A stretch of 64,000 bases of DNA from Salimicrobium halophilum (GTDB lineage Bacteria > Bacillota > Bacilli > Bacillales > Halobacillaceae), in contig NZ_FNEV01000002.1 in NCBI RefSeq assembly GCF_900100295.1, positions 310,001-374,000 on the forward strand, read 5' to 3'. Below the pieces are notes generated by a model, which had not been told where the DNA came from, ran no database searches, and saw only the letters and a program-made list of their open reading frames with translations. This document shows, in pieces, positions 12,846-43,301 of the stretch (position 1 is the first letter of the stretch; each line of letters begins with the position of its first letter). Both the position numbers and the translations under genes were made by a program.

Positions 12846-12966
12846 TTGCTGAGCGGTTCGTTTTTTTGGAAATGGACCGTTCGCGGAGCGGAAAAAAGCA
12901 CGAGTGTCCGATTCTTAGTATTTGCGGTACACTCAGGACGGGTAGCACCCTCGTGAACGGTTCAAA
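12846..12966. repeat. GGTTCG/TTTGCGGTAC intergenic repeat, copy A
   Basis: GAGCGGTTCGTTT...GGACCGTTCG (12851-12882) is followed by TTTGCGGTACACTC (12921-12934) and GTGAACGGTTC (12953-12963). Closely related blocks recur at 36979-37139. Copies in both places sit directly before the hairpin array. No open frame or start site is seen in 12814-13012. Confidence 0.65.
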
Positions 12967-13012
12967 AGCATCTGAATGCCCCTTGCCCCTCTGACAAGCA
13001 GAGGGGGCTTAG

Positions 13013-13302
13013 GCCAGGGCTTCTAAGCGGGAAGTTTCCACTTTTTATTCAATCCAGCTGCATCACCCAGAAACCCGAGCCATAAGTAACCAGGATCAGA
13101 AAAAAGAAAGAGCACTTTTGTCTGACCAGGTTACTTATGGCTGAGGTTTCTAGGCGGGGTGATTCCGCTTTTTCTTTCATAATCCAGCTGCGAAGCCCAG
13201 AAGTCCATAACATAAGCGGCCACTTCTGTTTCGGAAAAAAGCATCCGAAGCCAGAACCGTCCGCTTATGTTAGAACTTCTAAACGGACTTCTCCGCTTTT
13301 TC
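13013..13302. repeat. Hairpin-element array A (half unit plus two full units)
   Basis: A half unit (to 13047) carries only the right-hand blocks TTCTAAGCGGG and TCCACTTTTT. Two full units follow at 13051-13173 and 13181-13302. Each full unit reads CAGCTGC, arm 1, CCAGAA, a long stem containing CATAAG...CTTATG, TTCTA.(A/G)CGG, arm 1', TCCGCTTTTT. Arm pairs differ between units but stay complementary (ATCACCC with GGGTGAT; GAAG with CTTC). No coding sequence is present. Confidence 0.8.
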
Positions 13303-13309
13303 TTTACCA

Positions 13310-13338
13310 TTGACTTTTATTTCCCACGCCCCTAAAAT
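13310..13338 (+). promoter_or_regulatory. SigA-type promoter for the YitT-like gene
   Basis: TTGACT at 13310-13315, a 17-base spacer, then TAAAAT at 13333-13338. It lies 46 bases before the ATG at 13384. Confidence 0.65.
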
Positions 13339-36978: not shown

Positions 36979-37139
36979 ATTTGCGGTACGTTCACGATTT
37001 GAAAAGGAAGCTTGAGTGGTTCGTTTCTATTGCATGGAACCGTTCGTGAATGGTTTAGCCTGATGAGCGATTTGTAACTATTTTTGCGGTACATTCGTGT
37101 GTTGGTGGATTCACTCAACGGTTCGTTTCCGCTGTGGGA
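36979..37139. repeat. GGTTCG/TTTGCGGTAC intergenic repeat, copy B (tandem)
   Basis: TTTGCGGTAC is found at 36981 and 37084, about 102 bases apart, each followed by a GTGGTTCGTTT or ACGGTTCGTTT block and a GGAACCGTTCG or GGGACCAATTC block. The first unit can fold by GGTTC pairing with GAACC. It is related to copy A at 12846-12966. Confidence 0.65.
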
Positions 37140-37159: not shown

Positions 37160-37377
37160 AAGGTGTCTCCACTTTTCTTTTAAGGGCTAGCTGCAAAGGC
37201 CAGAAACTCCTTAATACTGAAGTTTCTAATCGGGCCTTCTCCACTTTTCATGTCTAGTTGTAACACCTAGCCCTTAGCGACATAAGTGAAAACCAACCAT
37301 AAAGAAGAAATACGTTTCTTTAGGTTGATTTTCACTTATGCGAGAAGGGCTGAGCAAGGTGTCTCCACTTTTTTTTA
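37160..37377. repeat. Hairpin-element array B (diverged units)
   Basis: Unit 1 (37186-37245) lacks the long stem: CTAGCTGC, AAGGCC, CAGAAACT..AGTTTCTAATCGG, GGCCTT, CTCCACTTTT. Unit 2 (37253-37377): TCTAGTTGT, ACACC, CATAAGTGAAAACCAACC paired with GGTTGATTTTCACTTATG, GGTGT, CTCCACTTTT. Arm pairs AAGGCC/GGCCTT and ACACC/GGTGT differ from each other and from other arrays, yet both pair perfectly. No gene lies in 36909-37452. Confidence 0.75.
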
Positions 37378-40102: not shown

Positions 40103-42256
40103 ATGATGTACTGGTGGGAACGTATGATGGCGACGGACCCTGGTCGGAAACGTTTTCGACAGGCGGGAAAGGCTAGCTTGAGCCTCATGACTTCCGTGTT
40201 CGCGACGATGCTCATTCTTACTTTCGTTGGAAAAGAACCGCTGCTACCTTCGATACTAGCAGGAATGGTCGGGATGATGGGCATTATGGTAGTGATGGAT
40301 GATACGGAAAAAGAGAAGAAACAGACGACCCTTCTCCTTCCACTATCGGCGGCTTCCGGTATTACATTCGGTTCCCTGCTTGCGGAGAACGTGTTTCTTG
40401 TAAGTGGGCTTATGATTCTCGTAACGGCCAGCGCGTTTTATTTTTCAAGATATGGCACCCGCTATTTCTCCCTCGGCATGATCGGTTTTCTTACTACGTA
40501 TCTGGCATCCTTTCTCGGGTTGCCGGTTCAGGAATTCCTCTGGTTTTACATGGCTATCTTCATAGGAATGATCAGTGCGTATTCCTATAATTTTCTTCTT
40601 TTCAAAGATTCGGCTCGTATGCTGAACCACAGCATGCGCTCTTTCCATCGTCAGGCGAATTTGACTTTCGACCTGCTGGAGGAAGTAATACGGGATGAGA
40701 ACCTTCTCGAGGAGAAGAAAGCGATCCTCGATCAAAACTCCAGGAAACTCCGGGAGTACGCGAGCAGTGTCGCGACAGATGTGAAGGCACAGGAGATCCA
40801 GGAGCTGTGGCCGGGGCTGTCGACGGCGCAGGTACGGCTGTATCTTTTCGATGCGGCGATGCTAGTCACCACCTTGTCGGACAGCCTGCAGCGGCTCAAG
40901 GAAGATCGTGCTTTTGAAAATGGACGGATCCGGAGGCTGTTGATCGATGTGCTGGACCATCTTCGGAAAGCGGAAGTGTTGAAGCATTCCTACGACGCTT
41001 ATGACCTTGAGAAAGCGAACGACACCCTCGAAGAATTGCGCGGGGTCATTGATGATCTGTTTCATAGTCAGGTAGACAGGCCGGGAGGATGGCTCTATCT
41101 CCTGCGTCGTATAGAAGCGATCGCCGGCCACGTGACCGAAGGCGCCATGGAGATCCGGCAGTCGATGTACAGGGATCGACATATAGAGGATCAGGAAGAA
41201 GAGGAAGAAGCTGAAGAGGTAGAAGAAGGGATGAAACCTTCTACGAAAAAAGCGATCCAGGCTTTGATCGCAGGGTCGATCGCAATTGTCGTAGGCCATT
41301 GGATTTCCCCGATCCAGCCATACTGGGTGATACTGACGACGTTCATCGTCCAGATCGGTACGGATACAGTAGGCCGGACGTACCTGAAAGGGCTGGAAAG
41401 ATCGATAGGTACGGTGATCGGAGCGATTTTCGGATTCGGGTTGGCTACCGCCGTATCAGGATACGCCATTCTTGAACTGATTCTTATCTTTTTCGTCATT
41501 TTCTGTGCGTTCTATATGCTCAGCGTGTCCTATACGATCATGAGTGTATTCATTACGATGCTGATCGCTTTCATGTATGACCTCATTCTCGGGGGAATTA
41601 CGTATGAACTGCTGGCAGCACGGGTCATTGATACGATTGCCGGTGCGATCATCGCTCTTACTGTCGTGTCCTTCATTTATCCGACAAAAACGATGAACAA
41701 AGTGACGACTACGTTCGAAGAATACCTCGAAGAACTCGAATCCTATGTGACGGATTACCTGAAAGGGTTCCGCGGCAAAGGAGTCAAAGACCTGGCGGAG
41801 AATGCCTTCGACCTTGATGAAAAGCTTCAGCTTATGGAAGACGAGGCTAAACCGGTGCTTCAGGGGCCGGGCATCCGTAAGTATTCAGGCTTGCCACGAT
41901 GGATGACGATTTTTACGGCTATCAATTATTATGCGAAGCAGCTCGTCGCCTCCTCGTATCAGAAAGAATTCTCCTATGATGATACGGTGAGGGTAGAGCT
42001 CGAGCGAACGGAAGAAAAAATAGCACAGAATCTCCGTATTCTGCGTGAAAGTATGAAAGAGAAGAAAAAAGCTGGTGCGCTGCACGATCTGAAAAGAGAA
42101 CGGGATATTATCGAGACACATGCGCCTGCGTCATCCGAGGCGAGAGGAGATCTAATTCATCATCTTCATTATGTGTGGAAGATCAATCAGTCTCTTCTCG
42201 TTCTGGGGGCCAGGCTTCATCTGGACGAAAAAGAATCCCGAGACGACGTTTTGTAG
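40103..42256 (+). CDS. FUSC-family (aromatic acid exporter-like) membrane protein
   Basis: A 717-residue inner-membrane protein with the duplicated layout of the FUSC family. One block of about six membrane segments (residues 22-165) is followed by a cytoplasmic helical region (about 170-385) with a glutamate-rich stretch. A second membrane block (about 388-540) containing IQPYWVILTTFIVQIGTDTVGRTYLKGLERSIGTVIGA, the FUSC signature, comes next, then a helical C-terminal domain. Relatives YccS and AaeB export aromatic acids; the substrate here is unknown. AGGAGGGAGG precedes the tandem ATGs. Confidence 0.88.
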   Translation: MMYWWERMMATDPGRKRFRQAGKASLSLMTSVFATMLILTFVGKEPLLPSILAGMVGMMGIMVVMDDTEKEKKQTTLLLPLSAASGITFGSLLAENVFLVSGLMILVTASAFYFSRYGTRYFSLGMIGFLTTYLASFLGLPVQEFLWFYMAIFIGMISAYSYNFLLFKDSARMLNHSMRSFHRQANLTFDLLEEVIRDENLLEEKKAILDQNSRKLREYASSVATDVKAQEIQELWPGLSTAQVRLYLFDAAMLVTTLSDSLQRLKEDRAFENGRIRRLLIDVLDHLRKAEVLKHSYDAYDLEKANDTLEELRGVIDDLFHSQVDRPGGWLYLLRRIEAIAGHVTEGAMEIRQSMYRDRHIEDQEEEEEAEEVEEGMKPSTKKAIQALIAGSIAIVVGHWISPIQPYWVILTTFIVQIGTDTVGRTYLKGLERSIGTVIGAIFGFGLATAVSGYAILELILIFFVIFCAFYMLSVSYTIMSVFITMLIAFMYDLILGGITYELLAARVIDTIAGAIIALTVVSFIYPTKTMNKVTTTFEEYLEELESYVTDYLKGFRGKGVKDLAENAFDLDEKLQLMEDEAKPVLQGPGIRKYSGLPRWMTIFTAINYYAKQLVASSYQKEFSYDDTVRVELERTEEKIAQNLRILRESMKEKKKAGALHDLKRERDIIETHAPASSEARGDLIHHLHYVWKINQSLLVLGARLHLDEKESRDDVL

Positions 42257-42275
42257 TCGTTTCGGGATTCTTTTT
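42234..42275 (+). terminator. Intrinsic terminator
   Basis: ATCCCGAGACGAC and GTCGTTTCGGGAT form a long stem (one wobble) followed by TCTTTTTG, overlapping the stop of the FUSC-like gene. Confidence 0.85.
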
Positions 42276-42566
42276 GTTTCTAAGCGGGAAGTTTTCACAT
42301 CTTACTCTTCATAATCTAGTTGCGTTACCCAGAAACCGGAGCCATAAGTAGCTCGGATCAGAGAAAGGAAAGTGCGCCTTTCATCTGACCGAGCTACTTA
42401 TGACTAAGGTTTCTAAGCGGGGTAACTCCACTTTTTATTTCATAATCCAGCTCTGCCATCCAGAAGCCCGTGTCATAAGCAGTGATTTCTTTTTCAGGAA
42501 AGGGCACCTGAAAAGAGAAACCCCTGCTTATGCCAGACCTTCTAAGCGGGATGGCTCCGCCTCTTA
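42276..42566. repeat. Hairpin-element array C (half unit plus two full units)
   Basis: A half unit (42276-42310: GTTTCTAAGCGGGAAG) is followed by full units at 42313-42437 and 42444-42566. Helix 1 arms are GTTACCC/GGGTAAC and GCCATCC/GGATGGC. Long stems contain CATAAGTAGCTCGG..CCGAGCTACTTATG and CATAAGCAG..CTGCTTATG. The first full unit is close to the first unit of array A. The 307-base gap holds no gene. Confidence 0.8.
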
Positions 42567-43301
42567 TTTCTGCATAGGACGGACCATGACTTCATTGACA
42601 TCTACATAGTCCGGTTGGGTTACGGCGTAGGTGACGGCTTTGGCTATGTCTTCGGCGTTCAGTGTTTGTGTGCTTCGGCCCTTGAACATGTCGAGTACGT
42701 CTCCATCTGTAATGTGGTCGGTCAGTTCGGTGTCTACTGCTCCTGGGGAGATGTTCGTCACTCTGACGCCGGTGCTGGAGAGTTCTTTCTCCATGCCCAT
42801 GGACAACGCACGTACTGCATATTTCGTTGCACTGTAGACGGCGCTTGAAGGGAAGACTTCGTGTCCTGCTACGGAGGATATGTTGATGACATGACCGGAT
42901 TCCTGTTCGATCATCGTCGGCAGCGATGCATGGATTCCGAATAGTACCCCTTTGATGTTGACATCGACCATCTGCTCCCATTCATCGACGTGGTCGTTTT
43001 TAAGGAAAGATAGAAGCATGACGCCGGCGTTGTTAACGAAAATATCAACGCTTCCGAACGCTTCTTTCGTTTCTTTCACCAGGTTCTCCAGGTCTTCTTT
43101 CTTCGTTACATCCGTTTCTATCACTTTTGTATCTACGCTATAATCTTTCTTGACCTCATCGGAAAGCTCTTTCAATTTTTCTGAGCGGCGAGCGGCCAGT
43201 ACGACATTCGCCCCATGGCTAGCCAGATGATGGGCAATCGCTTTTCCTATGCCACTGCTGGCTCCTGTAATGATTGCGGTTTTATTTTGCAATGTTTCCA
43301 T
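42564..43301 (-). CDS. Short-chain dehydrogenase/reductase (YdfG-like)
   Basis: A 245-residue classical SDR. TGASSGIG is the cofactor motif, AARRSEKL after strand 2 suggests NADP, NNAGVM follows, and catalytic residues are in INISSVAG and YSATKYAV. The C-terminal VTYAVTQPDYVDVNEVMVRP is characteristic of the YdfG/serine-3-dehydrogenase-like subgroup that reduces 3-hydroxy acids or semialdehydes. AAGGAGGGA lies before the ATG. Monocistronic, divergent from lutR. Confidence 0.88.
   Translation of the reverse strand: METLQNKTAIITGASSGIGKAIAHHLASHGANVVLAARRSEKLKELSDEVKKDYSVDTKVIETDVTKKEDLENLVKETKEAFGSVDIFVNNAGVMLLSFLKNDHVDEWEQMVDVNIKGVLFGIHASLPTMIEQESGHVINISSVAGHEVFPSSAVYSATKYAVRALSMGMEKELSSTGVRVTNISPGAVDTELTDHITDGDVLDMFKGRSTQTLNAEDIAKAVTYAVTQPDYVDVNEVMVRPMQK

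Follow-up and report, generated by a model that had tools for sequence, protein, structure and literature searches.

What are the hairpin elements that recur at three places in a 64,000-nucleotide stretch of the Salimicrobium halophilum genome (the window), which of their strands folds, and how do they come to lie where they do? The initial annotation had described six units here, with fixed sequence blocks and co-varying helices, read on the plus strand. We examined them by folding and with R1, a covariance model built from 15 units. They lie in three arrays, A, B and C, each with a stub ahead of its first unit, and array A consists of its stub and two full units. The strand given below for units and stubs is the folded one, for which the evidence is presented further on.

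13021–13046, minus strand: stub of array A, the last piece of a unit, preceding the first full unit (sequence inspection)
13047–13175, minus strand (folded strand; first read as plus): full unit A1; R1 137.7 bits on plus
13177–13303, minus strand: full unit A2; R1 96.3 bits on plus
37160–37177, minus strand: stub-like 3′ piece of array B (direct repeat D1)
37183–37252, minus strand: shortened unit of array B; z −0.7, without an R1 match at E ≤ 1
37247–37375, minus strand: full unit B2, of a divergent subfamily (CTAGCC...GGGCTGAGCA); R1 82.5 bits on plus, z −7.9
42228–42275, no strand assigned: ordinary terminator-like inverted repeat (I3), immediately preceding the array C stub
42277–42305, minus strand: stub of array C, missing in the sister species G002 and G003
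42309–42438, minus strand: full unit C1; R1 137.4 bits on plus; complement −65.9 kcal/mol, z −9.3
42440–42567, minus strand: full unit C2; R1 102.8 bits on plus

All six units are present where they had been reported, and five of them fold far better than shuffled sequences (z −4.2 to −9.1). The unit at 37186, with its z near zero and no R1 match, is thus a cut-down copy, which leaves five full units of the six. R1 (E up to 1) finds these five, four of them also as weaker reads on the opposite strand, and its sole other match in the window, of 13.6 bits at 42195–42305, overlaps the array C stub. The fixed blocks had been said to be common to all six units; the one at 37253 lacks CAGAA and TTCTAA.CGG and has CTAGCC and CTGAGCA, although its architecture is kept. 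The exchanges of paired helix 1 arms are as the initial annotation had described them.

A unit is about 125 nt long and is built of an outer helix of 3 bp, a variable helix 1 of 7 bp, a one-sided bulge of 4–5 nt, a 6-bp helix 2, an inner stem containing CATAAG/CTTATG and, at the top, a hairpin whose 8-nt loop is close to AAAGNGCA. The folded complement strand begins 5′-AAAAGCGGA and returns to GCAGCTAGACAA-3′. In A7, an alignment of 30 units of which two are from the window, both sides have changed in 32 of the 37 pairs, against 21.2 in shuffled alignments; 92.9% of the paired cells can pair (69.4% shuffled), and the covariation score is 0.599, compared with 0.168 after shuffling and 0.078–0.165 when the structure is slid. 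Within the genome itself, at least six of the seven helix 1 pairs are kept in 82 of 95 units. For R1 the structure was hand-drawn on the basis of folds, and for a second model, R2, it is the consensus given by RNAalifold; both structures are thus biased in favour of the present sequences. In other genera the bulge frequently reads GANCA (GACCA, GAACA, GAGCA or GATCA; A7 plus 92 units) and resembles the end of the top loop (AAAGANCA). Two units, at L028 1748–1875 and L252 19090–19300, have a mismatched helix 1, their halves apparently coming from different units; the first 27 nt of the latter match the unit at the same site in the sister species G001.

The family extends well beyond the window. 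The pattern TTCTAANCGGN{4,7}TCCRC has 102 matches in the 3.16 Mb of this genome (G000) and none when reversed as a control. An R1 search of the same genome, in which 150 of 1164 candidates were scored, returned 140 rows that include two 61-nt fragments and at least two opposite-strand reads of another row, which makes about 135 or more a reasonable estimate of copy number. Across 61 genomes, this one included, R1 is present in 50. R2, built from 30 units of many genera, is present in 121 of the 150 sampled genomes of the host order (66 of 84 genera), under stricter filters and with at most 24 candidates scored per genome, and in 2 of 249 genomes of a phylum sample, namely this one and one more of the same order. 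A pattern scan of named genomes gave at least 117 stretches, 80 of them listed by title. Further copies and covariation had been proposed as a check, and both are found, the covariation being very strong; they support the earlier view that the fold is selected or copied as a hairpin. "Halophilic Bacillaceae", the group suggested for that search, is too narrow, as the carriers' titles include Neobacillus, Cytobacillus, Metabacillus, Sporosarcina, Planococcus and Jeotgalibacillus. The titles of two carriers (L157, L167) read Pseudomonas sp. ISL-84 and Paenibacillus sp. FJAT-29882; these labels may be mistaken, or the copies acquired by transfer.

Repeats of this kind are common in Bacillus intergenic DNA, and we know of no name for these. 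Rfam has no match in the window above the gathering cut-off; at a relaxed cut-off, 12850–13330 gave only sub-threshold microRNA models. Six consensus pieces of 13–14 nt matched, among the papers searched, seven with unrelated titles. We found no paper naming the family, which agrees with the initial annotation, the nearest candidates (bcr1–bcr18 and Bhal-1) being set apart by their descriptions and not by sequence. The bcr repeats of the Bacillus cereus group are described as intergenic and 100–400 bp long, bcr1–3 as MITE-like and often in UTRs (PMC6542083, PMC3446304), and bcr3 as associated with longer mRNA half-life (PMC3446304). They resemble the present family as intergenic repeats in Bacillus (PMC6542083, PMC3446304) and differ in being described as specific to the B. 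cereus group (PMC6542083), whereas this family is order-wide. Bhal-1 of Bacillus halodurans is likewise given as a stem-loop repeat family in a bacterium then named Bacillus, but its 36 copies are 74 bp long against about 125 here (PMC2267715). The 52-nt repeats in the description of PMC8161180 were set aside, their size and sequence being different. We therefore treat the family as a newly described variant of dispersed extragenic hairpin repeats, on a comparison with its nearest candidates by description.

Which strand folds is judged differently here from the initial reading. In folding, the complement of the strand first read was more stable in 262 of 281 units (60/63 own, 64/65 sister, 12/13 family and 126/140 named), by 5.7–7.0 kcal/mol on average. 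For A1 the complement reaches −62.9 kcal/mol (z −7.6); A2 gives −60.8 kcal/mol on the complement (127 nt) and −47.3 on the plus strand (136 nt), and C2 −57.2 (128 nt) and −45.8 (136 nt). Mismatches were counted after units with fewer than 9 of 13 pairs had been dropped and helices with more than two mismatches left out; the filter reduced the units from 66 to 63 (own), 68 to 65 (sister), 15 to 13 (family) and 179 to 140 (named), the starting numbers including alternative reads of one place. On the strand first read, helices 1 and 2 of the 281 units hold 3447 Watson-Crick, 56 A.C, 14 G.T and 74 other cells. When the distinct helix 1 pairs are counted once each (148, of which the 130 with at most two mismatches were used), there are 35 A.C against 7 G.T, a bias with p = 1.5e-5 if relatedness is ignored; the inner five pairs give 19:5, and the own, sister and named sets 16:4, 13:1 and 6:2. 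An A.C on one strand is a G.T on the other, and the complement thus behaves like the folded strand. The bias is equal where the downstream gene is not convergent (22:3), hence a property of the element and not of stop-adjacent sites alone. As counter-evidence, two inner pairs in other genera are rich in G.U on the strand first read (16 and 15 of 30). Whole-stem sums on that strand, which omit pairs below 60% Watson-Crick, are 79 A.C and 43 G.T for the own genome (one pair omitted, with 20 A.C and 4 G.T) and 88 A.C and 42 G.T for the diverse units (omitted: two G.T-rich pairs, with 29 and 51, and one A.C-rich, with 68). Another whole-stem count was dropped because fixed internal-loop positions dominated it. 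These results point to the complement, and not the strand first read, as the relevant one. The observation of a hairpin family is confirmed; its interpretation as a whole is partly supported.

The strand bias also bears on whether the units are arrays of intrinsic terminators on the strand first read, where they end CGCTTTT and so place a hairpin before TTTT. As a control, 294 terminator-like hairpins from the same DNA sets carry 105 G.T and 29 A.C on their T-run strand, favouring G.U over A.C, and the units show the opposite (Fisher p 7.5e-13); tRNA acceptor stems (19 of 23 tRNAs; 5 G.T, 1 A.C) are too few to weigh. The strand first read folds less well, and an ordinary terminator-like hairpin already lies between the upstream gene and the array in 99 of 107 gaps, against 52 after shuffling. 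Of the readings considered here, terminator arrays seem to us the least probable.

Placement relative to genes was examined in 159 arrays flanked by genes at either end (98 named, 34 sister, 27 own), with genes taken as simple longest-ORF calls; two arrays inside ORFs and arrays without both neighbours were left out. The upstream gene is on the strand first read in 114 of these, the downstream gene is convergent in 82, and 77 have no convergent downstream gene. Taking the CGCTT of the last unit as the array end, we found this end overlapping the convergent stop codon or at most 15 nt from it, mostly at 2–8 nt, in 46 of the 82 arrays, against 8.6 expected from even placement in the free space. 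For the other array end and the upstream stop, such closeness occurs once in 114 arrays, with 9.0 expected. When 38 own arrays were counted separately, 13 of 21 fell within 8 nt. In the window, the end of C2 overlaps the stop codon (TTA on plus) of a convergent SDR gene (42564–43301). A further case comes from G336, whose genome has two R2 matches: one unit there follows the stop codon of ATP synthase gamma by 4 nt, inside an atp operon, and has its folded strand in sense.

From these patterns in the DNA we tentatively favour, with somewhat less than even confidence, the explanation that the units are dispersed, non-autonomous hairpin repeats of about 125 bp, common in one order, which become 3′-UTR hairpins. 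Many genes are followed by a stub of about 27 nt, and full units are gained or lost between the stop codon and the stub. The folded strand at such sites is the sense strand of that gene, so that a unit would become a large mRNA hairpin directly after the stop codon. REP elements of E. coli occur near stop codons, and by analogy with them the hairpin would most likely shield the mRNA from 3′–5′ exonucleases or slow termination, while an enzyme acting in trans would presumably move the units. Counting against this explanation are the 77 of 159 arrays that lack a convergent downstream gene, the persistence of the A.C bias away from stop-adjacent sites, the two inner pairs rich in G.U on the strand first read, the low share of named arrays with a recognised stub (34 of 117), and the failure of the search for Y1 and RVT_1 enzymes to reveal a mover. 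Present in most of the order's sampled genomes, and in about 135 or more copies here, the repeat may affect a large number of mRNA 3′ ends simultaneously and in a species-specific way; with the covariance models and the strand test the family is easy to annotate and can be sought in existing RNA-seq data.

Conservation of the loop, bulge and CATAAG blocks across genera could instead suggest a regulatory RNA with its own function at each place and no mobility. The surroundings speak against this. The neighbouring genes vary from site to site, and among four genomes with 1–4 R2 matches, in which a shared neighbour gene was sought, none was seen. Many sites are also empty in sister species: R1 has no match in the 240 kb of window-matching regions from three of them. 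Site A is without a unit in G002 and G003, and G001 there carries different genes and a piece resembling a stub; site B is empty in G001 (the gene pair was not found in G002 and G003); and site C consists of about 60 bp with no unit in G002 and G003, and holds a decayed half in G001. We regard a locally acting regulatory RNA as very unlikely.

Turnover is also seen among 12 further gene pairs compared by eye between G001 and G000. P2, P4 and P7 hold no element at all and P8 none of this family; P1 has a stub in both genomes; at P9 there are two units in G000 and none in G001; at P11 G000 has a stub alone and G001 a unit with its stub; at P3 one unit stands against two; and P5, P6, P10 and P12 hold different units at the same site. 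The stub is common to sister species at several sites with different units. Arrays in which a stub could be made out ahead of the first unit number 47 of 62 in the own genome, 33 of 39 in sister genomes and 34 of the 117 listed from named genomes. The idea that helix 1 is copied from the target, which would make the stub arm resemble the 3′ arm of the last unit, was rejected as not significant in the own and sister sets (9/47 against 6.2 by chance, and 7/33 against 3.8); named genomes gave 19/34 against 6.2, with shuffles that mix species. In G001 and G000 alike, a lone stub (L218 4600–4700, L252 9277–9340) follows on from a reading frame, whose final codons and stop it apparently provides.

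Exchange of units at fixed places recalls integron attC sites, which form arrays of hairpin sites, act through the folded strand and are gained and lost at fixed places. The likeness extends to size and to the folded strand itself, which has paired arms and a one-sided unpaired bulge. The complement might accordingly be a folded single-stranded DNA, the substrate of a site-specific recombinase, with the stubs as fixed docking sites and the units as gene-less cassettes. It is the more stable strand with DNA parameters too (275 of the 281 units), sister species hold different units at the same sites, with a stub shared in several, and the arrays contain dissimilar units. However, attC arrays differ in having genes between the sites, and the helix 1 of these units varies without any fixed sequence, unlike a recombinase core site; nor does a recombinase alone explain placement 2–8 nt from stop codons. 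We consider this unlikely and retain the reading as 3′-UTR hairpin repeats.

The make-up of the arrays is informative about how they grow. Neighbouring units share helix 1 in only 1 of 33 own cases (P 0.008) and 1 of 32 sister cases (P 0.02), and neighbour cores are on average less alike than random pairs (means of 0.60 against 0.64 own, 0.56 against 0.62 sister), so own and sister arrays did not grow by simple duplication. In named genomes helix 1 is common to 15 of 25 neighbours, there again with shuffles that mix species, and unlike neighbours are therefore no rule of the whole family. Two G003 arrays about 3.5 kb apart (L227 303–670 and 3880–4185) hold the same two units in the same order, a pair that looks as if copied as a block. 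Among 59 own unit pairs with core similarity of at least 0.95, all seven arm bases are identical in 30, and no more than four in 11. This partial uncoupling of cores from helix 1 would also be expected if host machinery alone, through ectopic gene conversion and template switching between arms, spread the cores and kept the arms paired with no dedicated function, and the 13 pairs of helices 1 and 2 in 30 diverse units, which are without one-sided (G.U) change, fit such a process. The strand bias of the mismatches and the placement at stop codons point to selection on one strand, and we judge spread by host machinery alone quite unlikely.

What would move the repeats of the favoured reading is a question posed most sharply by genomes without Y1, RVT_1 or both. 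REP/BIME elements (GTAG and CGTC families) are described as 20–40 bp repeats with a GTAG or CGTC tag, often with Y1 transposases (PMC3733652), and share with the present units that they are dispersed extragenic palindromes in many copies, form hairpins and are thought non-autonomous (PMC3733652). The units here are about 125 nt long, in contrast to REP elements as so described, and Y1 is missing in several repeat-rich genomes. Among 61 relatives, Y1 is present in 48 and RVT_1 in 32, which would suit movement of the repeats, in the manner of REPs, by a Y1 (RAYT/IS200) transposase, or their copying, in the manner of SINEs, by an RVT_1 reverse transcriptase. However, Y1 was found in none of G000–G003 and G048, and RVT_1 in none of G000, G002, G003, G044 and G048, so that G000, G002, G003 and G048 are without both; all these genomes have at least 22 R1 matches. 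Both enzymes are thus ruled out as obligate partners in present genomes, and movement by either, which would call for an enzyme since lost or unrecognised, is highly improbable. The ten genes of the window that were inspected beside the arrays are ordinary. A MITE would have inverted ends in common with a transposon, and a target duplication; here a repeat of about 27 nt is common to stub and unit, and a search of the DNA sets for a longer element with these ends confirmed none. Of two candidates, 3.6 kb (L227) and 184 nt (L207), the former proved to be ordinary genes between two arrays. With blastn, which could miss diverged copies, a window unit had no match in plasmids, and for a unit of L123 plasmids gave a single match, at 75% identity, while phages gave none. 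A bolder proposition, which we hold to be doubtful, is that the family is a new kind of mobile repeat, recognised only as the folded complement strand and independent of Y1 and RVT_1, that would dock at the stubs of about 27 nt behind stop codons. In this genus each unit's helix 1 would not pair with its neighbour's, which would give strings of independent hairpins in mRNA ends.

Several further features of the genome accompany the repeats. Contigs C9, C10 and C11 hold 12 of the 140 R1 rows on 1.36 of the 3.16 Mb, and the family is thus unevenly spread; dnaA lies on the repeat-rich contig C14. Assuming a terminus opposite dnaA, hand counts put 30 of the 38 units listed for G013, and about 31 of the 46 arrays listed for G044, in the direction of the fork, a bias that carries no weight since gene orientation alone might produce it. 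Other short repeats (TTTATCTCAAAAAG, TTTATCGTAA) lie between terminator and array in several intergenic regions (L004, L010, L218, L252). A second repeat type (GAACCGTTCG..., TTTGCGGTAC.TTC/ACTC...) stands just ahead of arrays A and B, at 12850–12975 and 36980–37130 of the window, and pieces resembling it also precede other arrays of the genome.
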